Part shown: positions 12,592 to 41,911 of the stretch, piece by piece
Numbering within the stretch: position 1 is the first letter of the stretch
Layout of the letters: the number at the start of each line of letters is the position of its first letter
Source: Ricordea florida
Lineage: Eukaryota > Cnidaria > Anthozoa > Corallimorpharia > Ricordeidae
NCBI GenBank assembly: GCA_949710005.1
Contig: OX453283.1
Coordinates: 20,245,504 to 20,309,503, forward strand
DNA: 64,000 nucleotides
Reading direction: 5' to 3'
The notes under the pieces: generated by a model
The model's database searches: none
What the model saw: the letters and a program-made list of their open reading frames with translations, nothing else
What the model was told of the DNA's origin: nothing
Program-made: the position numbers and the translations under genes

Positions 12592-12673
12592 ATAGGAGAC
12601 TGAGTCGAGGCATGGCGGCGTGAGGAATCTACTTTTCTCCGCTCGCACAATACATGGTTTTTTCTTCATAATT

Positions 12674-13394
12674 ATGGCGGAATCCCTGTTGAAGTATGTC
12701 TCCAGGAGAAGGAATAGATCTTCAGACAGCTCCACTGAGGGAAAAGGAGACTCTCCTGTTACAAAGAAAGTGAAAAGCACTACTGATCACGATCTCTCCA
12801 CGGCGAGTGACGAACATGGCGAGGAGACCGAAGATAGCAACATTGTGTTGACCGCTCTTGAACTAACGGACGATTTAAGTGGAATTCTAAAAGGCATCCT
12901 AGAAAACCTCAAGAAGCTGGATACCATCGAAAGCGCCGTTAAAAAGATTGAAGGCAGCTTGGACAAATTAGGAGAAAGAACTACGAGACTCGAAGCGCTT
13001 GAGAAATCGGCCAGAGAGGACATTGACCACTTAAAGACAAACCACAGCCTCATTGAAAAGAAACAAGACGACGACAAAAAAGCATTAGATAAAAAGATTA
13101 AAAGCCTTGATGGGAAAATTGCTGAATTGCAAGACAAGGAGAGAAAAATCAACCAAACTCTAGAAGACCTCAACACGAAAGATTTATACTGTACCTTGAA
13201 GCTTATTCGAGGCGTGAGAATATAAAATTCAACAACATTGCCGAGTCACCCTCACCTAGATATGGTTTAGAAGACACCGAAGAAATGCTTCGATTATTCC
13301 TGGAAGAGCAGTTAGGATATCAGGAGGCAAACTCAGTTGAAATTCAGAGAGTCCACCGACTGGGGAAAAAGAAAGCGGATGGAGGAGCGCGGCC
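12674..13394 (+). pseudogene. L1 ORF1 protein, N-terminal two thirds
   Basis: The ATG at 12674 opens a basic, Ser-rich N-terminus, then a long heptad coiled coil (about residues 60-170), then the start of the RNA-binding RRM-like region (YSRRENIKF, later VEIQRVHRLGKKK). The frame shifts near 13190, where about five extra bases (TGTAC) separate DLY from LEAYSRRE. Translation of the homologous frame continues to Gly-Gly-Ala-Arg-Pro at 13394, where the 17.6-kb element begins. The next residues (ILARFLRF) are found at 31024. In L1-type elements ORF1p is the RNA chaperone that packages the transcript. Broken by both the shift and the insertion. Confidence 0.85.
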
Positions 13395-13410
13395 GACACA
13401 GCAGTCAAAC
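13395..13410 (+). repeat. Left terminal inverted repeat of the 17.6-kb element
   Basis: GACACAGCAGTCAAAC matches the inverted right end at 14 of 16 bases. A looser match (GC-rich with CATGC) continues for about 15 more bases. Confidence 0.75.
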
Positions 13411-14035
13411 GCACGCTCATGCACAGCGGGCTCCCGGACATATGGCTAATATGCATTTAATTAGCATAAGTTTGTAAACAAAACGAGTTTAGCCTTGGAC
13501 TGGGCCCAACTGACCAAAGTTTTTCGCAGTTTCTAAGAAAAGTTTAGAGTGTCTAAGGTCAAGAGTTACACTATTTTTTCTCCTATACGTTTTACATAAT
13601 TTACTACTTAAACTCGTCTAACTCTGTTTACACTTTTCGCGGTAGCAGAATGAAGTCGCCCGGTCTCTCGCTGGCGATAGTGGCGATTCTGTTCTATATT
13701 GGATTTGCCGGTAAAATGCCAGGTCCATGCGAAAAAAAGTGCAAAACCAGAGCAACACGGGATGCTTGTGATAATGCCAACTCGCTTTTTGTCACGAACG
13801 TTAGATTGGCAAGAGCAGCAGGGGTAAAGCAAGGTGCAGCGCTTTGTCTTTTTCAACGAAATGTAGCGAACAAGAACAATAATCGATGCTCCTTCCCGTC
13901 TCATTGCCATTCGACCTCACTTCTTCCTCTGCCTGAAAGACTCTTTGAAGCTGTTGATCAACTCGGAAAGGAAATGTCCAGTTGCTATCAGCCTGGCAAC
14001 AAGTGGTGCACTTGTTGCAGAAAAAAAGGGGAGCA

Positions 14036-14156
14036 ACTTCAGAATACCCGTCCACTTCATTTACATGTGTCGGGGGCTTTTGAAGAACGAGGTATATCAC
14101 AATGGACTCTTTTGTTATTCATCAGTATGTAAATAAGTGGACGGGTATTCTGAAGT
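14036..14156. repeat. Perfect 22-bp inverted repeat with 77-bp spacer
   Basis: ACTTCAGAATACCCGTCCAC and two more bases at 14036-14057 are exactly complementary to 14135-14156. This could be a miniature element or a transcribed hairpin inside the first introns of the DUF6589-like gene. No target duplication is visible. Confidence 0.85.
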
Positions 14157-14404
14157 CTAGCCCGATTCTGTTTTTGGGGTTTTTGTTGTTTGTCTACTTA
14201 GTTGTATGTGTAAGTTTGCGAGACTTTTGAGGTTTGCAGCATTTCTCAGTTTTGCTTTTAGTAATTATAACAATAAACATACCAAAAGAATGCTATATTA
14301 ACTTGCAGCACAAATCCTCACAGTCTGTTGACATGGCTGATAGCAAGACTTCCCCAAGGTCCAAACTTTCAAAGGTAAAAAGTTTTCTCCAACTATTATG
14401 GGAT

Positions 14405-14605
14405 TGTAAGGAATTAGTATAGGATATTTCATGCGCCTTACATGATGTCGGAAGGTCACGTGCTCAGGACACGAGGTTCTTAGACTAGGTTTTTCGCCGT
14501 AGGATTGACGTTGTACTCGTAGGCTGTGGGGCGATTAAAAGCGAGTTTAATTTCAGCCAAGAACGTCTCCTGTGTGTGGTTTTACTTCCAGCGAGTTTCA
14601 TTACA
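14405..14605 (+). repeat. Left LTR of the Gypsy element
   Basis: 201 bp, TG...CA ends, 200/201 identical to the right LTR at 19956-20156. It holds no coding sequence of its own. Confidence 0.96.
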
Positions 14606-14642
14606 TTGGTGGCAGCGAACTGGGATTAAAAGTGGAAGTAAA

Positions 14643-15623
14643 ATGAGCCAAACTGCCGAAGGAGTCGAAGGCGGTCTACCATTACCACCCACACCAGAAG
14701 AACAACACTTCGAACCGAAGAAGGTGGTAAAAAGCGAGCCAATCGAAGGCAACAGTGACATTCAACAGCTAGTCCAGGTTCTGAAACAAAGTATGCTGGG
14801 TTCGAGCGAAGTTAGTGAGGCGAGGAGAAATGCACGAGCGCCGCGTGTTTACTCGGTGGGGCAAAATTTCAAGACTTGGCTGTCGCAATTCCTACAATAT
14901 GCGAACCTGGTGCGCATCAGGCCGTCGGATCGACGAGCGTATTTGCTTACACTGTTGGACCAGCCGGCGTATAAAGCAGTGGAACTTCTCAAGCTCCCGG
15001 AATTGCTTGCTTTCGAGGATTTCACGGCACAGTTGGTGCAAAGATTTGATTCGGGGCGAACCAAGGAAGACTACAAATTGCGTTTACGCGCTAGGAGCCA
15101 GAAGCCAAACGAAGACTTCGAAGCATTTGCCGATAGCCTGCTGGAATTGGTAGAAAACGCATACCCAGAGGCGGCCTATCCATTTAAAGCAGAGTTGGCT
15201 AAGGATCAATTCATTCAAGGAGTCATTGTGGGCGATGCCATCCGTGAAAAATTGTTCATGAGCCAACCAGGATCACTCGTAGATGCCGTTCGTGTTGTTC
15301 GTCAGTTGGAAAGCGCTCGTAAAGCATGTCAGTCAGCGCCGTCGGTCGACAAGAAGAAGTCGGTGAATGTGGTCAATTCCTCGATGGATAACCAGAAGAT
15401 TTCGGCCGAAATCAGTGAGCTTAAGGAGCTTGTTCTGGGCATGAATGAGAAAATTCGTGAGCTAGAGAGGAAAACCGAAGCCAAACCTACGACGACATCA
15501 GGACGCCGGGATAACGTGGTGTGTTATTCTTGCCGTAGACGAGGCCATTTTGCGCGTGAATGTCCAAACAAAGAAACGGGAAACGGAGCTCGGGGCCTGC
15601 CAAGGGTCAGCCAGTCCCCTTAG
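14643..15623 (+). CDS. gag: Gag protein of the Gypsy element
   Basis: The ATG at 14643 lies 38 bp after the left LTR; upstream in-frame sequence is inside the LTR, so this start is preferred. The protein (326 residues) has an acidic Pro-rich N-terminus, a retrotransposon Gag capsid-like helical core (about residues 70-210), a Lys/Glu-rich linker and one zinc knuckle of the form C-x2-C-x4-H-x4-C at 15522-15563. Its last 60 bases overlap the protease frame, which lies in the -1 frame. It would form the particle that packages element RNA. This frame shows no internal stop. Confidence 0.88.
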   Translation: MSQTAEGVEGGLPLPPTPEEQHFEPKKVVKSEPIEGNSDIQQLVQVLKQSMLGSSEVSEARRNARAPRVYSVGQNFKTWLSQFLQYANLVRIRPSDRRAYLLTLLDQPAYKAVELLKLPELLAFEDFTAQLVQRFDSGRTKEDYKLRLRARSQKPNEDFEAFADSLLELVENAYPEAAYPFKAELAKDQFIQGVIVGDAIREKLFMSQPGSLVDAVRVVRQLESARKACQSAPSVDKKKSVNVVNSSMDNQKISAEISELKELVLGMNEKIRELERKTEAKPTTTSGRRDNVVCYSCRRRGHFARECPNKETGNGARGLPRVSQSP

Positions 15624-18600
15624 GATCAAGAGGTGTGGCCCAGGCAATCAGTGACTCAGGAATCTATATTACTGGTATGGTGAATCATAGTTTAACTTGT
15701 GTATTGTTGGACACTGGTGCAACTGTTAGTGTACTGAGTGAAGACATGTGGAGGAAAAGTGGTGCTGTTACGAAACTTGGGCCAGTGACAGGAACATTGA
15801 CAACTGCAAATGGCAATGAATTGACTGTCCTGGGAGAAAGTAAAGTAAGGTTTCGAATAGGCAACATGGATTGTTTTTGGACTGTCATGATTGCACAAGG
15901 TCTTGCTCATGATTGTATTTTGGGTTCAGATTTCTTTCAGTACTATGGGTGTCAAATTCAATATGACACAGTATGGTGGTGGGTGATTCTGAAATTCCCA
16001 TCAGATACTGCAAGGTTGTAGGTAGTGTTTGTCAACTTTTTCTGTGTACTGATGTAGAGGTAGAGCCTGGGACGGAACAAGTGCTCAAAGTGAAATTAGA
16101 AGAGGGATATGAGCGAAACAATGGAAGCCCTGGGATCCTAGAGGGCTCAAAGGAACTAGGAGTAATGAAATCAGCAGTTTGTATGGCTCGGTCCCTTGTA
16201 GTCCCAAGGGCAGGGCAGACCCTGGTGCAAGTGGCCAATTTCTCTGACCAACCAATTTATCTACGTTCAGATCTTCCTGTTGCTGAATATCATCCCATAA
16301 GCGGTATGAATGGCAGTGCTATTCCTATTGAAGTTGAACCAGAATCCAAACCTTCATCACACCCTTCCTGTTGAACTATTGGCATGACAAGCAAAGCAGG
16401 AGACAAAGGGAGACTAATTTGCGACCAGCAAAACCTGGAAGGCCTTTCAGAGGGCCAAAACGAACAGTTCGTATCCCTTGTGAGAGAGTACGAGGACATT
16501 TTTGCCATGAACAGTTCTGATTTAGGAAAATCGGATCTTTTGGAGCATGCAATTAACACAGGTGATTGTGCCCCAATCAAGCAACCCCCACGTCGTACTC
16601 CTCCACACCAAAGAGAGATCATAGATCAACAACTGGATGAACTTATAGCTAATGGTGGAGTTGAACCAGCCCAAAGTCCCTGGAATAGCCCGGTGGTTCT
16701 CGTCCGGAAACATGATGGTACTTACCGCATGTGTATCGATTTCCGCAAGCTTAACCAGTACACACAGAAAGATGCTATACCACTACCTAGAACTGATGAT
16801 GTCTTAGAAGCCCTGGGTGGTGCCCAGTGGTTCTCCTGCTTGGATTTGGCCTCTGGGTACTGGCAGATGCAGGTCAAAGACAAAGAGGACAAAGACAAAG
16901 AGGACAGACCAAAGACAGCCTTCTCCTCTCATCGTGGGCAGTTCCAGTGGACAGTCATGCCCTTTGGGCTGACAAATGGACCAGCTAGCTTTACCAGGCT
17001 GATGAATCTCGCCCTCAGTGGACTTACTTGGACCCATTGCTTGGTGTATTTGGACAATATTATCATCTGGGCCCCCACATTTGAAGACCATCTTCACCGC
17101 CTACGGTTGGTTTTTGATAGAATACGGGCGGCAGGTTTAAAGCTCAAGCCTTCCAAGTGTCAGTTTCTGAAGAGAGAGGTCACATTTCTAGGACATGTTG
17201 TTTCATCTGATGGAATCAAGACAGACCCCGAGAAAGTGAAAGCCGTTAAGACTTGGCCAACGCCAGTAGATGTCAAAGAACTTCAGAGTTTCCTTGGTCT
17301 TGCTAGCTACTATCGGAGATTCATCTCGAGGTTCTCCATCATTGCAGAACCACTCTACAAACTATGTAGGAAAGAAACTTCCTTTCACTGGCAACAAGAG
17401 CAGCAGTCTGCCTTTGAAGAGCTCAAGAACCGACTGATCAGTGCACCCATCTTGGCATAACCAGATTTCAGCGCAGGTGCAGGGTCCTTCATACTTGACA
17501 CGGATGCTAGCGAATACCTGGGAATTGGGGCAGTACTGTCCCAGTTACAACCTGATGGGTCTGAAAGGGTAGTTGCATACGGGAGTCGCTCGTTGAATGA
17601 CCATGAGAGAAACTACTGTACTACGCGGCTAGAGATGCTGGCTTTAGTAACCTACACTGGCCATTTTCATTACCACTTGCTTGGGCGGCGGTTCAGACTA
17701 CGAACCAACCACCACTCATTAAAATGGTTGATGTAGTTTAAAGAACCGCAAAGGCAGGTGGCCCGCTGGCTGGAGTGCCTTCAAGAGTATGACTTTGAAG
17801 TAGAGCACCAACCTGGAAAACAGCATTGCAATGCAGATGCAATGTCACGCCGACCAAGACGAAAGCATGGAGAGTGCCCATCCTGTGTTCCCTCAGCCAG
17901 TCCCCAGGTAGCCACTATTGCGGGGAAAATACCAGCGAATCAGAAGTGCGACGAGAATGTGTTGTGGTCACCTGACGCTGTTGCAAAGGCGCAGTGGGAA
18001 GACCCCGATATTGGGCCAGTTGTGAAACAGTTGTCAAGAGAGTGGAAGAAACCGACTATTGGGGAGCTTCAGCCGATGAGTCGGGCCACGCGAGCGGTCT
18101 GGGCGCAGTTTCCTTTGTTGCAACTGAAGGAAGGAGTACTGTATCTTAAGTCACCTAGAAACACTGCTTCAAATAAGCCATGGATGGTTTTGCCACACAG
18201 CTTAATTAAGCTAGCTCTTACCGAAGTTCATGATGGTCCTGCTGGTGCTCATCTAGGAAGAATGAAGACTATGAAGAAGATGAGTACAAGGTTCTGGAGA
18301 CCTGGTTTGACAAAGCAAGTACATCGGTACTGCGATGGTTGTCTTACCTGTGCCAAGTGCAAGTCCCAACCAAGACCAAGGGCACCCCTGCAGCCATTTC
18401 CCTCTGGAAACCCAATGCAAAGAATCCACATCGACATTGTTGGGCCATTACCACGGACTCGTAGAGGGAATCGTTACATCTTAACTGCACAGTGCAGTTT
18501 TACCAAGTGGGTTGAAGCATTTCCCATCCCTAACCAGCGTGCTACAACCTGTGCAAATGTGCTTGTAAGGAACTGGATTTGCCGATTTGGTGTGCCTGGT

Positions 18601-19821
18601 AACGTTGAGTCGAAGGTCTTCGAGGAGATTTGCCACTTCTTACAGATGAAGAAAACCTGTTCAACTGCATATCATCCCGAGGGAAATGGACAGGTGGAGA
18701 ACATACACAAGACCCTTAAGAGCATGCTGCAATCTGGAGCTGAAGACAACCCTAAAAGCTGGCATGAGAATCTGGATTATTGTATGATGGCTTACCGAAG
18801 TAGCGTCCATACCTCCACAGAGCACACGCCTTTTGAACTAGTGTTTGGAAGAGAGATGAGGATACCCTTGGATGTGATGATGGGTGGGGCTCAAAACAAT
18901 GAATGCTCGTACACTGAATTTGTTGCTGATCTTCAGGATAATTTAGATGCTGCATACAGGAGCGTAAGGCAAAATTTGAAGATTTCTCAGCGACGTCAGA
19001 AAGATGCCTATGATAAGGGAGTGAAACATACTGTGTATCACCCTGGAGATCTGGTCTTGCGGTACACTCCACAGGTGAAGCCAGGTAAAGCGAGCAAGTT
19101 TCACAGACAGTGGCAAGGGCCATTCGAGATTGTGAAACAAGTAACGGAAGTTACCTACCTTGTCAAGAAAGTGGGGGGACGCTCAAGGCGGTCCAAAGTT
19201 GTCCATTTCAACAACTTGCGGTTGTATCAGCTGAAGCCTGAAGAAGTAGGAGAGGAAGACGCAGCTAACGTAGTTGGGAGCCCTGGTGGGGTAGAGGCAG
19301 CGGTTGTGGAAGGTGAAGGGGGGCAGGATGATCAAGAATCTGAGGTGCCAGAGGAAAGCGGTTATCAGTCCCACTACACCGATGCTTTTCCACCGGGCAT
19401 GGGGGAAGAGGATGTCCAAAGTAACCTGGTGGTGGATGTGCCACCTGTTCGACGGGATGTTGGAGATGAATCTGGGCTACATTTACCAAGGGGAAACGAT
19501 GCTGATAAAAGAAGAGACATTACTCTACAAGACGATAGAAGTGAAAAGACCCTTCCTGCTCAAAGCAATCAGGCTAACTGTAGTGTTGAAGATGGCGATA
19601 GTAAGCATGAGGTTGAAGAGGAGCAGTCCACCTCTCAGAGTCAAAGACCGGTGAGAGTGAGGAAACCCCCTGACCGGTATGGTGAATGGATTGTAAGTAG
19701 CCTACAGGAAGTTACGGCACGTCTTCAGATGCTCGAGGAGAAGCAGATCATGGAAAAGAACTGGATAAATAAACTGAAACCGAAATTGTTGAGGAAAGCG
19801 AAAGCATTAAGAGGACATTGA
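15560..19821 (+). pseudogene. pol: Pol polyprotein of the Gypsy element, multiply disabled
   Basis: Domains in order: aspartic protease (LLDTGAT, about 15705), reverse transcriptase (16384-17100, FRKLN, LDLASGYWQM, MPFGLTNGP), RNase H (ILDTDAS, about 17490), integrase with HHCC finger (about 18230-18355) and first Asp (HIDIVGP), then a GPF/Y-type module near 19117 and an acidic tail. Lesions: frame shift near 15970; TGA at 16372; TAA at 17458; TAG at 17734. The YxDD motif reads YLDN (17047-17058), so the second Asp is lost. A 15-bp tandem duplication lies at 16877-16906. The integrase has a short deletion near 18594-18612 which removes the segment that carries the second catalytic Asp, so two enzymes lack active-site residues. 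It is unlikely to have mobilised itself. Confidence 0.92.
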
Positions 19822-19955
19822 AAAACACTGCAACATGCGTGAAACAACTTTTCAACATATTTGTCTTACTCATGAACTGAACTTTTGTTGAACTGTTTTA
19901 GTTTAGTGTTCACTGTGAATCAGGAGATTCACGCCCTTTTTAGGAAAGGGGATAG

Positions 19956-20156
19956 TGTAAGGAATTAGTATAGGATATTTCATGCGCCTTACATGATGTC
20001 GGAAGGTCACGTGCTCAGGACACGAGGTTCTTAGACTAGGTTTTTCGCCGTAGGATTGACGTTGTACTCGTAGGCTGTGCGGCGATTAAAAGCGAGTTTA
20101 ATTTCAGCCAAGAACGTCTCCTGTGTGTGGTTTTACTTCCAGCGAGTTTCATTACA
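19956..20156 (+). repeat. Right LTR of the Gypsy element
   Basis: 201 bp, preceded by the purine-rich tract at 19942-19955 and followed by the GGAT duplication. Confidence 0.96.
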
Positions 20157-20184
20157 GGATTGTTTGGGGCAAAGATCTTCAACA

Positions 20185-20220
20185 AATAACACTTTAATAA
20201 TAATAATAATAATAATAATG
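20185..20220. repeat. AAT trinucleotide microsatellite
   Basis: About eight AAT units at 20194-20219 in the intron after the Gypsy element. Confidence 0.75.
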
Positions 20221-21727
20221 AAATTTGCTTGAGTGTCAACTGTATTTAGCACTGACATACTAATTGGGGACACACTAAAGCACAAACGAAATCATGTCAA
20301 ATCATATTACATAAAAATATTTTAAAGGAATAAACAACAAAATCAATTAGTTCTTACTTTCATGTTTCTCTGAAAGAACCTACTTGAGCGACATTTATTT
20401 CTTGATGCTTACTTTACAATATTCATGTTATTTAACACTGTTTTCAGATTTGTGCAACAACTACTTCACCAATTCTCAGGCTCTGTGATTCAATAAAGGA
20501 TGCCCAGTACAGTGTCAACAACAATTCAGCCACTTCAGTGAAGTTTACTACCATACTCTCAAGTATTGAAAGAAACATAAGAATGTTGGAGTACAGAATG
20601 GACTGTGCTTTAAACACATGGCAAGTTTTTGAGACCCTGTATGGCAGTGTCATGATGGATGAAGAAGGAAATGTGCGAGTTGACAGTCGTGTCTGGGAGG
20701 GGATATTTGACGCTATAAATGATGTGAATGGGTCCCAAGGTACATTCTAAGAACAAACTACTCTCCTTATACAGTGATTAATGTCATAGAAATCATACTT
20801 TGAAAACATAAGAGTTTAATTTTGCAAACATTTTCCGGTTGTATGAACATGTAGTTTATAAGGGTGCCTGAGAAACAAATTTTCACACATAAAAATTCAG
20901 GCTCCTCGGTGTAAAAACCTGTTACGTTTACAAACGACGCTTAACAAAGAAAATAAAGGAGAAAAAACAATAGATACTAGGAAAATAATAATGAAGAAAC
21001 AAAGAAAAACTTCACAGGTTTTTTCACCGAGGTAAACCCAAATTTCAATTTCCTTTAACCTAGCTAACAACCTGAAACAGTCTTATCACTATTACAAGGA
21101 TTAAAAAATAATTATGATCCTTAATCACATTGTAATCATCAGCATTTACTTTGCACTTTTTCTCTTTATTCAGGTAGTATTTTTTTTCTCTGCAGATAGA
21201 TCATTTGAAGAACTAATGCTAAAATTTCAGTCAGCACTGTATCAATACTATGAAGAAAATGAAGGGCCACCACTCTACAGTCCAGAGCTCATGAAAGACT
21301 TTGTTGAAAAGTGTGCAAGTGGACTGTTTGAAAAAATACTGCAATACTTAAAGAGGGTACATCAAAAGAGAGAAGGGATCTACAGGAACAAAGAACAGTT
21401 GCATTACTTCACATCATGGCATATTTCAGGTATACAATATGTTTCCAGTCTTAAAGTAATGCCCAATAATTCTGTCACTAACAAGCATTGAATATTCAGA
21501 AAGAACATAAATACAAAAATTAACAAATCTTCCCGGGTTTATCATCTTATTTTTATAGACTGTTTTTATCATTAACAGATCACAAAAGACTTCCACATTA
21601 CAGAAAGATATGGGCTTGTTCCTTCACTATCATGGGGCATCTCGTTCGGCAATAAATAGTGGCCCTGTATTGGGTGAGTAGCACAACAGATATCATTACT
21701 ACCATATGTTACAGTAAATTTTAAGAG

Positions 21728-21759
<32 letters not shown>

Positions 21760-21866
21760 GGTTTATTAGCATTCCACGTAAAAAATGGCTCTTCTATGCT
21801 AAAATATATACAAACAAAATACTATGATATTAAAAGATATATTTATATAATGATTTGAAAAATAAA

Positions 21867-24800
21867 TTATATTGGAAAACTATAGATTGTATATGAATTA
21901 TAAATAGATAAAAAGGAGAAAATTATAGATTTGTCCTTGCCTTGTTGATAAAAAAACTTTTTACAATGAGATACAAACTGTTTATATTCTGTGCAGTTCT
22001 TATATGAGACTGGTAAGCTGTTAAAAACTTTGGCCGCCTGGTCTTGTAATGTGCCTGAGTGTTTTGGCACCTCCAGGCTCACAGCTGCAGATGATCTTAA
22101 AGTCCTGTTTGGATGGCGGACAGTGACCCTGAGATATGCCGGCCAGTTTACATCATACAAGGCTTTGAAAGTAGTCTTGCAAAGATTAAGATCCCTGTTC
22201 TCATTGAAGGGCAACCAGCCAAGGTCTATAATGTCAGGTGTTTTCGCATATCTTTTTATGACAAAACTGGCAGCAGCAAGTTGCACTCGTTGCAGACGAC
22301 GCAATAGATAATTGGGTAGTTGATGGTATACAATGTCATTGTAGTATAACTTTGACAAGATCAAACATTCCGCTAACTGTTTTCTTACATGAAATGGAGC
22401 AAGATTTCTAAGGTTTCTAAGGACAGAAAGAGTGTAGTAACTACATGAGATTTTTGACTGAATGTCTTCATTCCATTTTAAGTTCTCTTGAAATGTTGTC
22501 CCCAGCAACTTGGTAGATGTAAGTCTCTCAAGTTTTTTACCTCCTGCTGACAGATTAGTTGGGTAGGCGTCAAGCTCGTGCACGCGAGAAAGCTGTTTGG
22601 TAGAAAACAATACCACCTTGGTTTTCTTGGCATTCAAGGAGAGGTTACAGCTTGATGACCAAGAAGCAAGACTGTCAAGAGCCTTCTGTAGTTTTTCCTC
22701 TCCGGCCTTTAAGTTAGCAGGTTTCTCATGGATGTATATAGTTGTGTCATCTGCATATTGATAGGATTTAATGGAATCCAAGTTGTCTGATAGATCATTG
22801 ACATAAATATTGAACAAAACTGGCCCAAGTATAGAGCCTTGCGGAACTCCAAAGGTAACGTTTACATAGTTCGAAACCTTGTCATCAATTTGGACAAACT
22901 GTTGTCGTCCGGTCAGGTAGCTAATCAGCCATCTCAAATAGTCTTTTGAAAAACCAATACTGTGCATCTTCTTCAAAACAGTCTCGTAGGCAACAGTGTC
23001 AAATGCCTTAGAATAATCAGCTAACACAGCCATGGTGACCTCACCTCTCTGCATGGCCTGGAGAATATCGTCTCTCATGGCCAATAGCACTGTGGTGGTG
23101 TTATGTCCCTTCCTATAAGCACTCATGGAATCCTTAAGAATACCATTTGTGGGGTTTGAAAGGAAGTCAGCTTTCTGCTTCAAAACAAGGCGCTCGAATA
23201 CCTTTGACAGTACAGGTAGTATGGAGATAGGTCTGAGGTCATTCTTTGATTTGATGTCGTTAACTTTAGGTATGGGGCTGATGCGTGCTATCTTCCACTG
23301 TCTTGGAAAGACTTGCTTAGAAATGCAGTTGTTTAAGATATTTGTGAGTGGAGATGCAAGACTTTCCGCAACCATTTTCACGAACTTAACAGGAATGTTA
23401 TCTGGGCTGCAAGAACAATCGCTCCTCATAAATTTGATTTCTTTAATGACCTCTGCGCATGTCACTGGACGCATACAGAAAGCGTCTTCCTTGTCAACAG
23501 GGAAAGAGTTCACCAAATCAAACAATTTTTCAATGGATTGAGCTTCGGCTCCAGTTACTCTTTCAGCTGTAGACCCGAAAAAGGCATTCAACTCGTCCGG
23601 GTCCGCTGTGAGTGGCTGTGGGCTGGGGTGCAGTATCCTATGTATGACTTGCCAAACTTGTTTTGGTTTTTTGGATGAGAGTGCTTTTTGATAAAATTCG
23701 CGTTTGGTTTTCTTGATATAAGTCTTGAGAGCATTTCTTTTCTCACGGTACGCCGCCCATGTACTTTCACTTTTGTCAGTGCGCGTGCGAGTGCGCAATA
23801 ACTGGCAGTCCCTCTGGAGTTGTTTGATATTAAGTTCTTTGAGCCATGGGGCTGGGGGGCGGGAAACCCTTGTTCGTTTGAGCGGAGCGTGACGGTTGAT
23901 GCATTCGCGACAAAGTTTGCTCAACATTTCTAGCTGTTCGTCAGGATCATCGCTTGAGTAGATGACACTTAGGGGAAGCTCAGCAAAGTCTCTAGTAAAG
24001 GCGTTCTGATCAAAGTTCTTTTCATGACGAATATACTTGTATCGCGGTACGAATCTGTTGACGCGGACATTTAGGCATGCGTACGGAGCATCATGATCGC
24101 TTATCATTAGACCACGAATGACATCAGTGTGTGTCACCTGTCGGGGAAGATTGGTGATTATGTGATCAAGAAGCGTTTCTGACCTTCTGGTAATGCGCGT
24201 TGCTTCGGTAACAATCTGCTTCAAATTTACGGCGTCCAAGAACTCTAAAAATCTTACAGCATCAGGGGCATTTGGTCGCAACAAATCCACATTTAGATCT
24301 CCTGTGAGAGCAAGCATACCGTCCCATGATGAAACAAGATCGGTTACTAGACACTCAAAGAGTTCCAACCAGTCCCTGTAGGGAAGAATTAACTCTGAAC
24401 GGTAAAGGACACCGAAGAGAACTTTGCTGTTTTTGTTGCGTCCTGGTAATTCTAGCCACAGATGTTCAAGAGAAGGATATCTTTCCTCAATGTCAGTGCG
24501 TCGTTTGAACTTAATCGACTCCTTGATATATACTCCAACACCACCCCCCTTGATCTTATCTCTGTTATTAAATGCATGAGTATAACCGGGAATAGTGACG
24601 TGTTGGAGAAGAAGACTGTTGTTTTTGAGCCAAGTTTCACTCATAGATATAATGTCGAAAGAGTAGCGTTCAATTGCTATCAGTAGATGATCGAAGGTGG
24701 AAACCATGCTTTGGGTATTAATATGCACAACGCTAAGATTTTTGCTGTTGCGCTTCAATGCGTCCAAGTGCGGATCTTCAAATTCTACATCAGTTGTATT

Positions 24801-25320
24801 ATTAGACACCCTCGTGAGCATCGGAAAACTCTTCACAGAAGAAGGGAAGTACAGAGATGGTACACTCTTGGCATGTCCATTCTACGGCTTTCGCAGAGCG
24901 CAGATGCTTCAAGTAGCTGAGCTGAACGCAACTTGCATGTGTTGTGTTAAAACAAATATTGCACTGCAAACGCTTCTGATTGCAACGAACAGTCTTCCCG
25001 CACTGAGGGCACACCGGTGCTGGTGTACGCCGAGGTCGCAGAGCTTCCGCTTTTTCAGTTTCGGGACCTGGATTTTGAGCAACATCGCCTGCAATCAATA
25101 GTAGCTGGAACGTTGCAGTGCTATTGCTATAATAGCAGACGCGTGACTTTGTTCTTCGTTTTCGTGACAGCTTTGTTGTCCATGCCTGGCGGCCCCTTGG
25201 GAGGACTTGATTAGGCGACATTCCAGGCATGCAAATTTTGTTTCTCCCTTGACTTTGAGTCGGCTGGCCATGCTGGAAATAACCAAAGGTTTTCGACAAG
25301 GGAAAGGTCGTTTTGATCAA
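21867..25320 (-). pseudogene. LINE protein: 2A-like motif, PHD finger, AP endonuclease, reverse transcriptase
   Basis: Two long frames differ by a single shift near 24836-24850. The upstream frame (from 25320) carries GDVAQNPGP at 25063-25089, a 2A-like recoding motif except that the usual Glu is Ala, then a PHD-type finger (CPQC, CNIC, H, C, WTCQEC). The downstream frame is open for about 989 codons: endonuclease motifs SETWL, GDLNVD and SDHDAP, then reverse transcriptase with GVPQGSILGPVLF and the catalytic YADDT. Aside from the shift I see no stop, so this copy is recent. The 2A would split the N-terminal zinc protein from the enzyme during translation, as shown for related elements. Start codon uncertain; the frame has an ATG-like start only upstream of the 2A. 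Confidence 0.88.
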
Positions 25321-25354
25321 ACGACCTTTCCCTTTTTGATCAAACGACCTTTCC
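25300..25354. repeat. Hairpin plus direct repeat at the LINE 5' side
   Basis: GGGAAAGGTCGTTT at 25300-25313 pairs perfectly with 25319-25332 around a 5-base loop, and the 21-bp block 25311-25331 is repeated directly at 25334-25354. It may be repeated 5'-UTR units of the LINE. Confidence 0.8.
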
Positions 25355-26255
25355 GAGATGAATCAAACTATCATAAAAATCATTATTTAAGATTACAAAT
25401 AAGATAGCTAATGATTAAACAGTGCCTGAACATTACTTCATATATAGCATATGCGGTACACTGCATCTGAAGTGACTTGGTCTTACCATAGCTACTATTT
25501 TAATGTCAACAACAGGGTACAGTGCTGCACCACGTACTGTTGACAGACACATATCAATGCTTAGAAAGAACTATCCATGTCACCTTGAAGACAAAGCGAA
25601 GATTGCAGTTGAAGTAAGCATATCCAATCATTTACATTAATGATGCAAATATGTACACAACAGGTAGAGCCTGCAAACAGAAATTCAATGCGATCGTTCG
25701 AACTCAACAAAATGGAGTGCTATGTTCTGTTGAAGTAAAAGAGAAACAAAGGTGCAAGTACATAGAAAATTACTGAAATTCCACTGGAAACATTTTAGGA
25801 GAGAGAGTAAGTCCTTTTTGAGGTGGCTACTCGCCTATAAAGCTGCAAAAATCACGCTCACAGCCGGGTAATTTTCCCTGCTCCCGGCTTTTATCTACAT
25901 CCCTGATACAATACAAGTTATTACAAGGCCGTGTTATTAAGAACACGTTTTGCTCCACTCGGTGCGAAAGAAAAAATCAACAGAAAAAAAAAATGAAACA
26001 GAGAACCAATGATTTCATGTATTTTTTTCTTTTTCAGAGTGAGTGCTTCATCATGCTTCTTATAGATGACTTCCACAATATATATACTATTCGTATGCCA
26101 CAAAACCACCTGAAGCTTTCAATAGCAACACACATGACATCAGCCCTGTTGGACATTCACCCATCTATAAAAGCAACAAGACTACCACAGGATAGAACTT
26201 TCATACACTGCAGCCCCACTGTGTTGAAAGATGGAGCATACAAAGAATGTGTTAC

Positions 26256-27655
26256 ATACATACATACAGACTTTATTGGAACTCCCTTTAACAGGGCTTT
26301 TCAGTCACAATAAACTAACTATTAAAAAATACTAAAACTTACTTACAATAACAATTTAAATTTAAAATTGAATTAATTGTTATAAAACATATTCTTAAAA
26401 AGAGTCTTCTTAAAACTATTAATTTCTTTGATATTCTTAATGTTCTCAGCTAGCCCATTCCATTCCCTTGGACCCTGATAGGAAAACGCCCTTCGTCCTG
26501 TTGACAGTCTACATTGGGGAACCACAAAATTATTACATCCCCTTGTGTTCCTATTGTGAACTGCTGAACATTTAACAAAATATTTAACTAAATAATCTGG
26601 AGCTAGACCATTTACACATTTGAATGCTAAAACTAAATCATTAAATAAAACTTTCTCTGTAACATCTAACCATCTAAGAGATCTCCGACCTTGAGATATA
26701 TAGTCAAACTTCCTTAACCCTAATACAACTCTGGCTGCAAAGTTCTGCACCAACTGTAGTTTGTGTAGATTACGTTTAGATGTGTTCCCCCACACTGAGG
26801 AACAATAAAACAATTTACTGAAAACGAAGCTATTTATAAGTAATAAAATTGTTTTCTTGTCTAAGAGATGTTTAATTCTTCTGATATGTACCAACTGGTT
26901 CATGCAACTAGAAGCTGTCTTAGAGATATGTACATCATAAGTAAGACAATGGTCAATATATACCCCTAGATCCTTGGCAAACGGAACTGGTGAAATAGTT
27001 TTGCCTAACAAAGACAATGAAATAGGAGGTAGCCTCTTTATAAGTTGTGCTGAGCCAACAACCACTAGTTTTGTCTTGTCAGGGTTTATGAGTAGAGCAT
27101 TTGTTGCGCACCATTTGCTGATATTCCTAAGATCTTGGTTTACAGCTGCCATAGCACTTGATGAAGCTGATACAGAAAATTTAAAGTACAATTGACTATC
27201 ATCAACATACGCAGCAGCTTGACTGTAGGTAATAGCACTAATTAAATCATTAATATAAATTGTAAAAAGCACTGGACCCAAGATTGATCCCTGAGGTACT
27301 CCATTTGTTAAGGGTAACATTTCTGAAACAGAATCTTCGTATCGTATCCTTTGATATCTACTAGATAGATAGCTGCTAAACCAGGAAACCGCCGAAGCTT
27401 TAAGGCCAAGTTTTCGTAGTTTTTCTAACAATAGATTATGATTAAGACTGTCAAAAGCTTTTGACATATCAAGCAGTACAAGTAACGAGGCTGATTTTTC
27501 ATCAATTGCTTTCAAAAGATTGTCTGAAACATTAATGAGGGCAGTTTCTGTTGAATGCATTTTCCTATTACCACTTTGGTAGAGCGACAGTTTATCATTC
27601 GTTGTTAAAAATTCCACAAGCTGCTTGTGTGCCAGTCTCTCACTTACTGGGTAAC
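26256..27655 (-). mobile_element. 5'-truncated CR1-like LINE inserted in a coding exon
   Basis: A minus-strand reverse transcriptase frame (about 27650 to the natural stop near 26373) has FRKNHST-type motifs (SGNRKMHSTETAL), DMSKAFDSLNH, GVPQGSILGPVLF and the catalytic YVDDS, and an intact C-terminus. The first part of RT and the endonuclease are missing. Downstream is AATAAAGTCTG followed by a (TATG)n tail at about 26252-26266. The flanking plus-strand sequence on both sides is coding for the DUF6589-like protein (KDGAYKEC before, ENVNTVVQNLKEW after), so the LINE interrupts an exon. Boundaries are accurate to about 10 bp; no clear target duplication. Confidence 0.88.
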
Positions 27656-30201
27656 GTTGGCGGTATATCCCAAGAGAATGTAAATACAGTAGTTCAAAAT
27701 CTGAAGGAGTGGAGATCAACCTTTTTAGCATCTGTGCCTGAATACTGCAGACTACATGGAGACAGGGTGCAGAGTCAGTTAAGGGCATTCAGAGTATACC
27801 ATGACCTGGCACATGAGGAGCTATGTAAACTAAATAGCTGCCATCTTGTGGATGAATTTGAGCACCCTTTGAAGTCCATGGAGCATTACAAATTTGCCAT
27901 AGATCACACACTTAACAATACTGGCGAGCACCTTCACCCATTTATGGCACAGTTTGCTCTCCCTTTTCCTGGGGATTGGGCTTCTTATCACTTTACCAAA
28001 AAGCTAATTGCCCAAGAAAGCATGAAAAGTACCACAAGCCACTATAAATCCATAATTCCAGAGCAAGGTCCATTCCATGTAAACTTGAATGCTGTTGACG
28101 ACATTATCTCAGTTTATCACTTCTTTTTTTCAACAATATATAATAATGTGTTTGGAAGTGTATTGCCTGGAAAGCCCAAAACATTTCGAGCAAACCTGCT
28201 CCTAATTGGTACCCTGTGCGGCTGGCTCCTAATTAGAGAAAAAGTTTTACAAACATTTAAACTTTGCAAAGACCTGGAGTTTGGCGCATCATACACATCT
28301 TGGAAGAAGTTCTCCCACTTGTTTTCTTTCAATATGGAATTGTTTTCCGATCTGGCAAGCTAGAAGATTATGAGTTTCTTATGTTTAGGTTCCTTATTAT
28401 CTTTATAATATGGAACCGTCACCATTATGACAAGTCTACCTTATCGATGTTAAATGACCTGTGTCACCAAAAGAAACTGTTCCCTGGATATTTTAATTTC
28501 AAGAAGAGATGGCTTGCCCTTATCACTGAAAAGAAGGTGGAAATTTGGCATTCTTTGTTACGTTTCCACATCAGAGACCACTACATTGCCAATGAAATAA
28601 GAGAAGCGGCAATTGGTATAGCAGCATCACATACTGCAAAATCATTCTTTGGCAACTTTATATGACCTTATTTACGTGGTGGCAACTCTGAAAAAAACCT
28701 GAAACTTGTTGCTGGGAGATCAGCTGAGGCAGTTCTGAAAATCTTTGTTTCCATTGGAAAGAATATAGGAAAATCCAAAAAGTTAATGCAGACTTAGATA
28801 TTTAATTATGCAACTTGACAGCACTGTGATACACAACACACTCCCCTCTGCCAAGACTATTGGTGTGGCTGGCTAGTGCTTAAGTGTGCCTTGTTAGAAA
28901 TTGACTGATATTGAATGATCTTTTTTAGTTGCCACAGGAAACAACAAGATCAGGGAAGCCAAGGGGAAAACCCAAATTCCACCTACAAACGTTTGACACC
29001 ACTATTGAGGACAAGGCCTTACCTCTATCATACAAGTTTTCTAATGAATATCCTGGCAGGTTTCCAGATCCAAATACTCCCTGTGATTACAAGAGATGTC
29101 ATGTAGAAACCAAAACTGAAGAAGTCATCCGGCTACCTTGCTTTCACACCTACCACAGGTCCTGTCTAATCCAGTCTGAAAATAGGTGCCCCGATTGTTT
29201 TAAACCATTCTGTGACCATCTTGCAAGCTTAACAAGAACATTTAATAATTCTCTATTAGCATCCACAAACAGCTCCTCCAATTCAAACAGTGCATCATCT
29301 GATGAAAATGTAAACATTGGTGAAGATGATGATGATGAAATTCCAGTAGTACTATGGATCAGAACAGTGGTATACACATATGGACAATGTTCTAGGAGAA
29401 ATACATATTCCACAGCCTGTGCAAAGAACCATCCACACAACACAAACTATTTCTCCAGATCAGCAACAAGCGAGAGCAACCAATACTACTCATACTACTA
29501 CTATTTACAGAGTTACAACTATCAATTTTCCAAGTGGCAAATTTTGGTTCTTTGAAAATCATATCTCACAGTCTACCTTGAATGACCAAAATGGTTCCAA
29601 TGCATGTACATTCATAGCAATTATCTTAAGTAAAGCAATTATTTCTAATTTCGCTTTTATTCCATTACCGCTAAATCAACTTTCACCAGTCTGGGGTGTA
29701 ATTATCACCAACTGCATTACACATGGCAATAATATTCATCAACGTGTCACCAGAGGTAGAGCAATTAACTTAAATGTAGCAGATGCTGCCTCTCATTTAA
29801 CATCACTCGGCCCCTTGAATGTTGAGGAACCATTAGATGTGGACTTCACATCTCAAAATCCAGAAGTTCCCCAATCATCGCTGGCCTTTTATCTACAGCG
29901 ACTAGTGCGGGAACACCATTTAGCAGCAGTAGTGATTATAAACAATATGTCTGTCTGCTTCTTGGGGAGAGGAAATCACCTGATTCTCCTTGACAGCCAT
30001 CTCCATGGACCATATGGTGCTCTTGTTGGAACAACAAGTCTGGAAAATATTGAACAGTTTTTGGTTGAGTGTAAGCAGTGGCTCAGCCCTAATGTTACAA
30101 TGTGCAGTGCAGTCCTTGGTAGCCAACTCTTAATGCAGTTTATCACAAAGGACCAGTTCAAGGTTAGTGAATGTATAAATGTTCCAACAAAGGCGAAGTA
30201 A

Positions 30202-30998
30202 GTTGGATGAAGAGGCACACTTTGAATACAACAGCAATAGCGCCTACGATACATGTGGAAGACCTGAACACATATCACACTCTTTGACAAATTTTGTTTG
30301 CAAAAACGGGTAAGGGAATGAAACGATCAAGTTCAAAACAACTTGTATCAGAAATCAGTTTTAATCAATTTGCTCTCGTTGATTTTCAATTATGCTGGTA
30401 ATGATTGAATTCTATTTAAAACTAACATGCAACCGTAACTACAGAATTCAAAATAATTACCGAGACATCTCTTCACTTGTTTACCTGGCTAAACAAATAC
30501 GAACTTCATTATTTAACGTAACACTAGACAGAAGTCGCAAAGCGTACAGCGTATGATGATTTGAATCGAGAGTGTCGCAAACAGCCGATAAGAATGTGAT
30601 ACTCGCGAATGAAATATTGACATTTGATATCCACAAAGTTCATTTTCCGTAAATTGTAAACTACAAAAAGAAAACCATGTTCACAGTTCCATACATCAGA
30701 AGTTCCATCGGACATCAGACGAGTATCATGGTACAGAGAGACCAGGTAAAAAGACATTTAAAAAAAAAAAAAATTGTCCACTTACTGACACTGGACCAGC
30801 CATGATCGCTCGAGAGTTGGATGTCTTCGTCTTTGTAGAGGCATCGCAGCTTCATGAGATGTTCATGACATGTAAATACTTTTGAAATTAGTATTCTAAG
30901 GGCAAATAGGCAGATCACACTGCCCAAACAGAATAGACTTTTTGCATTCACGTGCTAGAACCCGCCATCTTGGAGAATGAAAGCCACGCATGCGCACT
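30202..30998. other. 3' flank of the DUF6589-like gene inside the large element
   Basis: After the stop at 30199-30201 the plus strand shows no further coding signal. A weak two-exon minus-strand gene is possible (separate entry). Confidence 0.5.
30524..30855 (-). CDS. Possible small two-exon gene at the right end
   Basis: On the minus strand an ATG at 30855 opens 23 codons ending at a strong GTAAGT donor (30785). A TTTTTGTAG acceptor near 30663 leads into a frame (YNLRKMNFVDIKCQYF) that ends at a TAG near 30524. The phases agree and the total is about 73 codons. The protein is not recognised. It would be transcribed from the right terminal repeat towards the DUF6589-like gene. Chance is a real alternative for so short a gene. 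Confidence 0.25.
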
Positions 30999-31015
30999 GT
31001 TTGACCGCTGTGTTA
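30999..31015 (-). repeat. Right terminal inverted repeat of the 17.6-kb element
   Basis: Read inward on the minus strand it begins TAACACAGCGGTCAAAC. The subterminal stretch just inside has a TGCGCATGC motif (NRF1-like), and at 30961-30978 the plus strand carries CCGCCATCTTGG (YY1-like), so this end may also act as a promoter. Confidence 0.75.
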
Positions 31016-31606
31016 GCGCGGCCAATTCTAGCCAGATTCCTTCGCTTTAAAGATCGCGAGCAAATACTCGCTCTGGGCTCCCGTCTCAAAGAAACGAATT
31101 TCCAGATGTTCAGGGATCTTCCTCAAGAATTAGTAACACGGAGGAGTAAACAAATAGAATAGAATAGAATAGAATAGAATAGAATAGAATAGAATAGACT
31201 TTATTGAAAATACATGGCAGCCATTAGGCTGAATTGCGTATTTATGTACAAAATATTAATACTCTAATTACTATTAAATTAATATTTGGCAAACTATAAA
31301 ATCTAAAATTATGTACAAAATTAAGCAAAAAGGCAAACTCTAAAAAATGGACTAAAAAGTATCAACATTAAGACTTGACGATATAATAAAAGTGTTCTTG
31401 GCTCGATTCGTTTTAACTTTAGGGACATCAAAGGTTCTCGTACGCCTTAAAGTGTATCTAGTAGATTTATGTAATGGAGGGAGTAAATAATGCAGCAAAT
31501 GGACACCTTCAAGAAGGCGAAAAGGAACAACATACCCGTATCCTTTAGTAAGTCACAACCCGACAAACTCTATGTAAGAGGCAAACTTTGGCCAGTGGGC
31601 CAGGTG
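31016..31606 (+). pseudogene. L1 ORF1 protein, C-terminal part, split by a LINE tail
   Basis: Continues the ORF1 that was cut at 13394: from 31024 it reads ILARFLRFKDREQILALG, then FRDLPQELVTRRSKQ to 31156, the C-terminal RNA-binding part. A reverse-oriented LINE tail interrupts it. The frame resumes about 31541 with FSKSQPDKLYVRGK, which matches the usual end of L1 ORF1p. The 8-bp duplication at 31016-31023 belongs to the large-element insertion. Confidence 0.8.
31157..31540 (-). mobile_element. LINE 3' end with (ATTCT)n tail
   Basis: A run of AATAG units at 31157-31195 is followed by ACTTTATTG, which on the minus strand is a CAATAAAGT end plus pentanucleotide tail. Minus-strand residues such as RTFDVPKVKTNRAKNTF match the C-terminus of CR1-like LINE proteins. 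Only the last few hundred bases are present. It sits within L1 ORF1. Confidence 0.75.
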
Positions 31607-32002
31607 CTTGACATTTAATTTAAGGACCAGAACTCCACGTAACCTTTTCCTTGTACTATAGGCTTTTTTGCTCTTTACCGCTTTTAGTTAAACCTTTTTC
31701 GTCATTTTAAAGATACTATAGAAGTTTGCGAGTGGAGAGAGTTCTTGCTGTGTAGACCGAACCATGGAACCAAAAGCTCATTCCTCAACTAGCTCTTGTT
31801 TAACTAAGCGTGCCTTTTTGTTGTTGTCGTTGTTTTTATCGCTTTTTTTTTCTTTTTTTGCTACCTATGCTTTCTGTCAGTAACCTATGTGTAGCTTAAC
31901 CTTTTCTCTTTTTCTTTTAAAGATTATTTTTTGATAATTTTTTTTTCTCTGGAGCAAAGATTATGTACTGTTATATGTTTATATCCATGCTAATGAGAAA
32001 CC

Positions 32003-35000
32003 ATGAATCTTAAAATCGCGTCGCTAAACGTCAGGGGAATTGGAAATAACGCCAGAAGAAGAGAGGTGTTTAATTGGATGAGATCTAAACAATTTTCAGT
32101 GTACATGCTGCAAGAAGTCCATTGTTCCGAAAACACTACAGACATTTGGACCTGTGAATGGGGTTATAGAGCGCTGTTCAGCTACTGCTTGAGCAATAAA
32201 GCCGGTGTTAGTATTCTCTTCAACAATAACTTTAATTTAAATATTATCAAAACACTCTTAGACCCAAATGGCCGATTCATTATTTGCGATATCGAGGCAG
32301 ACGGCAAACTATTGACCTTGGCCAATATCTACGCTCCTAATAAGGATGATCCCGATTTCTTTCGCATATTTTTTGATCACCTCTCTAATTTTAAATGCGA
32401 TGAAGTTATAATCGGCGGCGATTTTAATCTAGTACTTGATATTGAAAATGATAAAAAGAATGGTATCGCCAGAACACACCAAAATGCCCTGAAGGTGGTA
32501 CAAGAAGCAATGGAAGATCTGGAGTTATGTGATGTTTGGAGATTATTTAACCCTGATAGCAAACGATTTACCTGGAGACAGAAACAGCCAGAAATTCAAT
32601 GCAGACTTGATTTCTTCTTAGTAAGTCATACTACGTTATGTAACAGTACTCATACAGATATTATTCCAGGTTTCAAAACGGATCACTCCATGATAACACC
32701 TAACCTATCCTTACATTCAAACCCAAGGGGAAACGGTTTCTGGAAACTAAATACGTCCCTTCTTGACGACACCATTTTTGTTGAGAAAATAAAAGAAACG
32801 ATACAAAAAACAGCTAATGAGTATAAAGATGATGAACTCGTCAGCCCCGCACTACTTTGGGAGATGATAAAATTGAAAGTGCGCCAAGAATCCATCTCTT
32901 ACTCTGAGTTTATAAAAAGAAAGAAAAAGAAAAAGGAAGATGAGCTAGAAAAAGAAATTGCATTTTTAGATAAACAGCTGGATAGTGCAATCGGCTATGA
33001 TCCCTTAATCCAGAATGTTAAAGAGAGAATTAAGATCCTAAAAGAAGAAATTGAAAAACTTATTGAATACCGAACTAAAGGAGCTATTCTTCGATCAAAG
33101 TCAAAGTGGTATAATGAAGGCGAAAAAAACACTAAGTACTTTTATAGCCTTGAAAAGAGACACTTTAAACAAGGCATGATAAGCCAGTTAAAATGTAATG
33201 ATAATACTTTCGTCACATCAGATAAGGACATTTTATCTGAATGTAAAACTTTCTATGAAGATCTCTACGCCTCGAAAATAGAAAACTCCCCTCATTTCAA
33301 TTTTTTTTAAGCAAGAAAATGAAACTCTTTTAAGCCCTGAAGATCAAGAGATGTGCGATGCTATCTTGACCGAAGCAGAATGCGCAGAAGCCTTAAAATC
33401 AATGGACTCAGATAAAACACCTGGCACAGACGGTCTACCAGCTGAATTCTATAAATTATTTTGGAACTATATTTCTACTTTTTTACTCTCCGCTCTTAAC
33501 TTTGGCTACGAGTCTGGCTGCCTTTCTATCACTCAAAGACGTGGAATTATTAAACTTATTCCAAAAAAAGACGCAGAACCCTTTTATATAAAAAAATTGG
33601 CGTCCTATTACCCTCCTCAACACGGATTATAAAATTGCAGCAAAGGCTATTGCAAATCGTTTTAAGACCGTGCTTCCAAAACTTATAAACAATGACCAGA
33701 CAGGTTTCATGAAAGGAAGGTTCATTGGTGAAAATACACGACTTATTGATGGTATAATCCAATACGCTGCACAGCACAAAATTCCAGGTCTTCTGCTTTT
33801 CATAGATTTTGAAAAAGCCTTTGATTCACTTGAATGGCCCTTCATTCAGGATACACTGCGCTTCTTTGGCTTCGGCCCATCAATCATCAATTGGGTACGG
33901 ACATTTTACTGTAGAATTGAAAGCTGTGTTCTCAACAATGGTTAGTCAAGCAGTTTTTTCCAACTGCAAAGAGGTGTTAGGCAAGGCTGCCCCCTTTCGC
34001 CGTATTTGTTCATCCTCACAGCGGAGGTATTGGCCAAGACAATCCGAAATAAAAGGAGCATAAAGGGTTTCTATGTTGGTAATAACGAAGTTAAGATAAG
34101 TCAATACGCGGATGATACTACTCTTATCCTAGATGGGTCAAGGGAGTCCCTTCTCGCAGCTCTGCAAACTTTAGACGATTTCATCAAGATATCCGGCCTC
34201 AGGCTCAATGCCGGCAAAACGGAAGCTCTTTGGATCGGCTCTAAGATTGGACAAGAAAAAATTTCTGTGCCAGAAAAGGACTTAAAATGGCCAAAATACA
34301 AGGTTAAAACACTTGGTCTATGGCTGTCAACCGATCCGGATCTAGCGAAAACCTTGAACTATAAAGAGAAAACTGAAAAAATTAGAAAGTTATTAAGTTG
34401 TTGGAAATACCGTAGGCTCACGCTGCTAGGGAAAATCACCGTGCTTAAATCACTGATCGCATCACAATTGGTTTACTTATTTGTGCCATTGCCTTCTGAC
34501 CATTATGCTATAAAAGAATTAAACGACATGTTTTATTATTTTTTATGGAATGGTAAGGGCGATAAAATAAAGAGAAAGGTTATGATTAATGAACCCGGAA
34601 ATGGAGGTCTGAAAATGATAGATCTCTGTTCTTTCAACAAATCTCTCAAAACAACATGGGTGAAAAAATACTTAGACACGACAAACAATGGAAAGTGGAA
34701 GCTCCTCTTCGATGATGAACTTAAGAACTATAGCTGCGAAAATCTTTTCCGCTGCAACCTTAATGTTAAAGACGCAAAAGAAGTGATTAAGGTCACGGAT
34801 CCCCTCCTTAAGGAGATATTAGAATACTGGACCGAAGCAAACTTTGAATGCCAGATAACTTCTGAAATCAATTTTAGAGAACAGGGACTATGGTTTAATT
34901 CGTTAATAAGAATTGCTAATAAGCCAATATTTTTTAAAGTCTGGTCGGAAAAAGGTATAACAAAAGTTAAAGACCTTCAAATGACAGGAACTAACAGATT

Positions 35001-35772
35001 TTTGCCTCTGAATGCTCTTGCCTCAAAATATGACATAAAGCCACGTCCTCTCGGTTTTTACGGCTTAGTATCAGCTGTAAAATCTCCTCGTAAATCCGTC
35101 ACCGAAGTTGATGAGAGCAGAAATCAAAACCCTGAAACACTCTGTGACAGGATTATGAAAAGCCAAAGACCAGGTCCATTAATCTATAAAAAGTTTATCA
35201 AAGCTAATAGTTTAACTCCAACTAATCGCCAAAACAAATGGCTTCAAGATTGCAACTATTTAGAGGAAGAAAACACTTTTAACTGGAAACATGCGTACCT
35301 CTTGGCACCAAGCTGCACCAAAAGCACCAAACTGATTGAGTTTCAGTTCAAATTTTTGCATAGACGCATACCAACCAACAATTTTCTGTTTAAAATAGGA
35401 AGAAAAGAAAACGAAAACTGCACTTTTTGCCACAGCGCCTCAGAGACATTGATTCACCTTTTCTGGTCATGTCATGTAACATCATCCTTTTGGGAAAGGA
35501 TGGTTGACTGGCTTCAAGAAAATCTTTTGATAAGCAGTGAATACACCTTATTGAATATCACAGCATTGGGCCTGAGGCCAGATCCTCATCCAAAATATAC
35601 GCTTCAATTAAACTATGTTTACCTGCTAGCACGTTATCATATTTGGAAGGCCAAGCTAGAGGAGACATCACCAAATTTCGTGCACTTTTTACATCTTGTA
35701 AAGACACAATTTACAATAGAGACAACAGCGGGTGACACAAAAAAATGGACTCCTCTTGCAGATTGTTTATAA
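32003..35772 (+). pseudogene. L1/Tx1-type ORF2: endonuclease, reverse transcriptase, zinc knuckle
   Basis: The ATG at 32003 starts an AP endonuclease (SLNVRGIG, LQEVHC, GGDFNLV, DHSMI), then a Lys/Glu-rich linker, then reverse transcriptase (DKTPGTDGLPAEFY, FIDFEKAFDSLEW, RQGCPLSPYLF, SQYADDTTLI) and a C-terminal C-x2-C...H...C knuckle near 35420. Lesions: a shift in the T run at 33301-33308, a shift in the A run at 33590-33596, and a TAG at 33943-33945 where relatives have Trp. Two of three lesions are homopolymer slips and could be assembly errors. It would nick target DNA and copy the element RNA. It belongs to the LINE split by the 17.6-kb element. Confidence 0.92.
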
Positions 35773-41700: not shown

Positions 41701-41911
41701 AATTAGAGTCAGGATCGAGATAACTCGAAAATGGATTACAAAGCTCGGGGCGCTCGATAGGATTAAATAAGAGCATTTTGAGGCGTTTATAGTCGCAATT
41801 TAAGGAGCCATGAGATAGCTCATAAAGCACCAAATGAAATGCGCTTTCGTCTAAATTATTAAATGGAAAAACAGATGACAAATGAGTAGAATAAATGTCA
41901 TTAGACATCAC
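38775..41911 (-). pseudogene. LINE ORF2: endonuclease and reverse transcriptase
   Basis: From 41911 the frame gives an N-terminal extension, then AP endonuclease (IIHLNARSL, VSETWLSD, MGDFNLDLL, LSDHFPVFAY), then a linker. The frame shifts near 40380. RT follows with GFRKNHSTSLALN, FLDLSKAFDTLNH, GVPQGSILDPLLF and the catalytic LLFADDTS. After RT are in-frame stops at about 39504 (TGA), about 39411 (TAG) and about 39133 (TGA). The last part, including SYDTRTAKSYRPH and IWNSLP, reaches the natural end at 38775. One shift and three stops mean it is inactive. Confidence 0.9.

Follow-up and report, generated by a model that had tools for sequence, protein, structure and literature searches.

The 64,000-nucleotide window analysed here (Ricordea florida assembly GCA_949710005.1, contig OX453283.1, positions 20,245,504 to 20,309,503 of the forward strand; all coordinates below are those of the window) contains an element that is best read as the remnant of an undescribed lineage of DNA transposons with terminal inverted repeats (TIRs). 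According to this reading, to which we give a probability of about 0.82 as a whole, a cut-and-paste TIR transposon was inserted into an L1-like element, its gene encoded a DDE transposase fused to a ubiquitin-editing tail, and the copy in the window is now dead. The element spans 13395-31014 (17,620 bp), with 16-bp TIRs and a direct repeat at its borders:

13386-13394, no strand, left target-site duplication AGCGCGGCC, 9 bp, direct repeat
13395-13410, plus strand, left TIR GACACAGCAGTCAAAC, 14/16 identical to the right end
30999-31014, minus strand (read 31014-30999), right TIR AACACAGCGGTCAAAC, 14/16 identical to the left end
31015-31023, no strand, right target-site duplication AGCGCGGCC, 9 bp, direct repeat

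Inverted ends together with a flanking duplication, as found here, are a hallmark of TIR DNA transposons. If the duplication is read as nine bases the inverted ends are in register, whereas the 8-bp alternative GCGCGGCC puts them one base off. Identical 9-mers lie 3-30 kb apart in 10,496 pairs in the window, and only the pair around the element encloses inverted ends that agree at 14/16 positions or better; none of the five letter-shuffled and ten block-shuffled controls contains such a pair. When the flanks are joined with a single copy of AGCGCGGCC, an open frame runs through the junction (...KKADGGARP-ILARFLRFKDREQ...). The first-pass annotation had proposed that an element with inverted repeats was inserted once and precisely, and the ends, the 9-bp repeat, its uniqueness among the pairs, and the exact rejoining of the host frame all agree with that. 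The interrupted host consists of three parts:

12596-13394, plus strand, left half of the host L1-like open reading frame (ORF) 1, with a frame change near 13190
31024-31158 (end approximate), plus strand, right part of the host ORF1, continuing the frame of the left half once the element is removed
31997-35772, plus strand, broken host L1-like ORF2 with endonuclease, reverse transcriptase, and zf-RVT domains

The interrupted frame is labelled L1 ORF1 because it lies upstream of this ORF2, whose Pfam domains are found at 32003-33310 and 34006-35772. The rejoined ORF1 itself was named neither by Pfam nor by a sequence search of the PDB, whose rows at E 0.75-0.78 are taken as chance.

The gene within the element belongs to a protein family that was collected stepwise. 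A composite translation of the gene found two relatives, and searches with alignments that started from these returned 45 hits and later 86; in the last homology search, scoring was confined to the 7,992 candidates with the most words in common. Alignment A4 omits 14 of the 87 family proteins, most of them short or weakly matching, and alignment A5 omits 20. Over the core, P0048 is the closest relative (66-74% identical), and the most distant long member is P0002, which was the earliest relative found and is absent from the later hit lists. Most hits are nameless. The named ones come from Porites lobata, Oculina patagonica, Montipora capricornis, Acropora millepora, Stylophora pistillata, and Nematostella vectensis, which are anthozoans without exception. 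The UniRef label "Transposase" on one hit was given no weight. Outside this set, the search for one gene piece found no relatives in phages, and a scan with alignment A4 found none in IMG/VR viral contigs and GTDB species genomes. The 15-base pattern of the ends is present in at least 120 stretches of the viral contigs, and these are taken as chance because the pattern is so short. NCBIfam gave only weak rows far below the cut-off, the PDB sequence search had no match for P0002 or for the last exon of the window gene, and the family profile retrieved from the PDB nothing but rows for large T antigen, none better than E 0.1, which are also taken as chance. The gene model of P0063 (Nematostella) starts with a seemingly helicase-like stretch ahead of the transposase core, which could be either a gene-model error or a fusion.

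The core of the gene product is predicted to be an RNase H-like DDE transposase shaped like the P-element, hAT, and RAG1 enzymes, with helices inserted ahead of the one that carries the Glu. This is based on structure models of relatives, in which transposases outrank all other folds listed, Hermes and the P-element transposase being the closest. Plain Foldseek searches with the core models were weak, and the model of P0001 returned nothing at E 0.001 or better. As far as such models go, an RNase H-like DDE core thus seems to lie inside the ends, its predicted fold is Hermes-like as in hAT transposases, and the earlier suggestion that the gene encodes the transposase gains support. In the model, numbered as in P0003, D142 and D143 are at the end of strand 135-145, D308 comes after strand 303-307 and H338 after strand 330-334, the insertion comprises helices 336-481, and E492 is part of helix 489-500. 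Among the aligned residues, conservation reaches 8/11 for D142, 9/11 for D143, 70/70 for D308, 71/72 for H338, and 60/67 for E492; the pattern around the second Asp is present in 77 of the 87 proteins. From the order and conservation of these residues we propose D142 or D143, D308, and E492 as the catalytic triad, and the equivalent residues are kept in the window copy. For the P-element transposase, the portion of PMC8230255 consulted gives the order D230 in b1, D303 in b4, [C/D](2)H after b5, the insertion domain, and E531 in a4. The family follows the order D, D, [C/D](2)H, insertion, E, but Gly335 sits at the C/D position, and the first two Asp are 165 residues apart here versus 73 in the P-element. 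If the structural alignments are crudely extrapolated from their end points, E492 of the first model would fall about two residues or less from E531 in both P-element rows. D142/D143 would lie at most three residues from D230 in the P-element row 6pe2, whereas the start of the other row is too far upstream for this comparison; the second model agrees.

Behind the core the same gene would carry two further parts. The window copy contains the eight ligands of a RING-H2 motif in the order C-C-C-H-H-C-C-C. A RING-like pattern is present in five of the 87 family proteins and not in P0002, and the Pfam RING rows are below the cut-offs. The tail that follows is predicted, from the model of the relative P0003, to have a papain-like fold of the M48 or viral-tegument-like deubiquitinase (VTD) type, and a Foldseek search against predicted viral structures again matched it to tegument proteins. 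The catalytic Cys and Asp-x-His (5/5 proteins holding both motifs) are kept in the window copy, and the tail is thus best predicted to be a papain-fold deubiquitinase resembling those of viral teguments. The RING-like cluster and the peptidase-like end that had been noticed in one gene are borne out by the motif, the predicted fold, and these residues. VTDs are known from Helitrons, insects, fungi, cnidarians, bacteria, and herpesviruses, whereas here a VTD seems to share one protein with a DDE-type core and to be carried by a TIR element. As far as the consulted sections of PMC9741609 go, most non-viral VTDs of that paper's first search lie in Helitrons, and coral and sea anemone VTDs are fused to "several transposon-associated domains".

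In the window copy, the gene is a single spliced gene on the plus strand covering 13650-30201; it starts 255 bp inside the left end and stops 813 bp short of the right end. The annotation of one long gene therefore stands in that there is a single gene inside the element, but it has to be corrected in that the gene starts at 13650, has at least seven exons backed by relatives, and is broken. The exon pieces follow each other in order, with splice-like sites, picked by eye, at most borders. All 11 pieces compared with the 87 family proteins have a match; for two of the pieces three frames were tried and one of these matched. Nine of the 11 had been used in the first query, which did not include those at 21604 and 25515, and the weakest match is that near 25515 (E 2e-4). 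The parts of the gene, all on the plus strand, are:

13650-14091, plus strand, exon 1, opening with a hydrophobic stretch and encoding a Cys-rich N-terminal region, matched by three family proteins (P0004 at E 5e-11), donor GT after it
14309-14374, plus strand, tentative small exon, suggested by splice-like borders only, without comparison to relatives
20448-20739, plus strand, exon 3, matched by P0087 (E 1e-6) and P0084 (E 7e-6)
21197-21429, plus strand, exon 4, family match
21604-21673, plus strand, exon 4b (QKDMGLFLHYHGASRSAINSGPVLG region), matched by P0063 with 75% identity in one of three frames tried
25515-25640 (3' border approximate), plus strand, exon 4c (YSAAPRTVDRHISML region), weak match to P0087 (three frames tried, one matching)
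26039-26250, plus strand, first part of exon 5, encoding the strand that carries the putative first catalytic Asp (LLIDDFHNI), family match
27680-28259, plus strand, second part of exon 5, proposed second Asp (PFPGDW) and IIPEQGPFHV.LN stretch, family match
28261-28794, plus strand, exon 5 past an apparent frameshift, with the putative Glu in KKVEIWHSLLR and a stop codon at 28663-28665, family match
28929-29345, plus strand, first part of the last exon, RING-H2-like motif CDYKRC...CFHTYHRSC...CPDC, family match and pattern
29350-30201, plus strand, last exon past an apparent frameshift, predicted viral-tegument-like deubiquitinase domain (SNAC and DSHLH kept), fold from the relative P0003

The lesions are apparent frameshifts near 28260 and 29346 and the stop codon, and with three retroelement pieces nested in the element as well the copy is dead. 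A hydrophobic stretch resembling a signal sequence or membrane anchor opens all three N-termini compared (13650-13715 of the window, P0004, and P0035), which is odd for a nuclear transposase.

The nested retroelements are the following:

14405-20156, plus strand, Gypsy-type long terminal repeat (LTR) retrotransposon, LTRs 200/201 identical, TG...CA ends, 4-bp repeat GGAT
21867-25362 (coding; outer borders approximate), minus strand, long interspersed nuclear element (LINE) with endonuclease and reverse transcriptase, from Pfam domains
26251-27679 (borders approximate; coding 26373-27788), minus strand, LINE fragment with reverse transcriptase that interrupts exon 5, from domains and alignment

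The Gypsy element has Gag-like, reverse transcriptase, and integrase matches. Because these three pieces are nested inside, the native size must have been below 17.6 kb, and the view of the element as a native 17.6-kb unit is given up. The N-terminal ORF of the first LINE (24802-25362, minus strand) shows a PHD-like region (Pfam E 0.002, below the cut-off) after the peptide GDVAQNPGP, which resembles a 2A ribosome-skipping motif. On the 5' side of the same LINE, at 25311-25356, a 23-base unit (TTTTGATCAAACGACCTTTCC..) is present in two tandem copies.

With these parts, the insertion could have proceeded as follows. An element with short inverted ends would have jumped into the L1-like element, where a staggered cut of nine bases, once filled in, would have left AGCGCGGCC on each side. 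The Cys-rich region at the N-terminus is possibly zinc-binding. The core would bind the ends, excise the element, and join it to the target DNA via D142 or D143, D308, and E492, and the RING and the deubiquitinase tail would edit the ubiquitin attached to the transposase or to host factors, for example so that the transposase escapes degradation.

A question of rank, compatible with the reading as a TIR transposon carrying its own transposase, is whether the element represents a deep branch of the P, hAT, or KDZ (Kyakuja-Dileera-Zisupton) superfamilies and not a lineage of its own. This is a serious, if tentatively held, possibility. P elements generate 8-bp target-site duplications, and the duplication here could also have eight bases if one of the nine identical ones agrees by chance; the closest folds are those of Hermes and the P-element, and the residue order is that of the P signature. 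However, no row for a P, hAT dimerisation or BED, or KDZ transposase appears among the Pfam matches of eight long family members, which were listed in full up to an E-value of 1 or 10. The nine identical bases and the Gly in the [C/D](2)H motif may speak against the P-element superfamily (DmTNP, THAP9), from which the family differs also in its RING and deubiquitinase tail, and the 9-bp duplication and the tail domains likewise set the element apart from hAT (Hermes). The KDZ elements are similar in being DNA transposons that may carry accessory enzymes. In the part of PMC12730594 consulted, Zisupton has TIRs and 8-bp duplications, whereas Kyakuja has 7-bp duplications, CA..TG ends, and no TIRs.

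It is unlikely that the gene is a DUF6589 protein in a transposon. The first-pass annotation called it DUF6589-like, and the motifs bear a loose resemblance. Pfam does not support the name: DUF6589 is missing from the complete lists of the same eight long members and from those of the window-gene pieces, and it is not among the 25 listed of 42 Pfam families for 73 aligned members. Membership was therefore rejected at the Pfam level. About equally unlikely is the idea that the element was non-autonomous and moved by another transposase, with a captured host gene as cargo as in Pack-MULEs. The lack of a sequence match to known transposases, the single copy known here, and the RING and deubiquitinase tail, unusual on a transposase, would fit such a cargo. 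However, the gene fills nearly the whole element, the core models are most transposase-like among the folds listed and offer a plausible DDE triad, and the family contains large clusters. A domesticated, immobile anthozoan gene between chance inverted ends, which might be suggested by the one bounded copy known here and by relatives that coral and Nematostella annotations treat as ordinary genes, is very improbable given that the ends and duplication are unique among the 10,496 pairs, that the host frame rejoins exactly, and that a host gene is not expected within an L1-like ORF1.

Returning to the TIR transposon with its own transposase, we lean slightly towards a new eukaryotic superfamily with a 9-bp duplication and RACACAGC ends. 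Its named members would so far all be from Anthozoa, and its P/hAT-shaped DDE transposase would have its own RING ligase and tegument-like deubiquitinase. A description of such an element was not found in the open-licence PMC literature; Repbase was outside this search and a deposited consensus may exist. If the superfamily is real, jumping genes of corals and sea anemones would bear ubiquitin-adding and ubiquitin-removing parts on a cut-and-paste transposase, and it would become testable whether a transposon defends its own enzyme from the cellular protein disposal. A DDE element would then be a second vehicle, besides Helitrons, for the spread of the enzyme class found in the herpesvirus tegument, and an anthozoan protein family mostly labelled "uncharacterized" would have a function.

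Further mobile-element and viral domains are present elsewhere in the window:

2919-3863, plus strand, piggyBac-type transposase domain (DDE_Tnp_1_7, E 5.9e-53)
44795-45880, minus strand, integrase-core protein (rva_4, E 1.8e-73)
61873-62658, plus strand, YqaJ-like viral recombinase domain (E 5.7e-8)
39504-41911, minus strand, another LINE with endonuclease and reverse transcriptase domains across two ORFs
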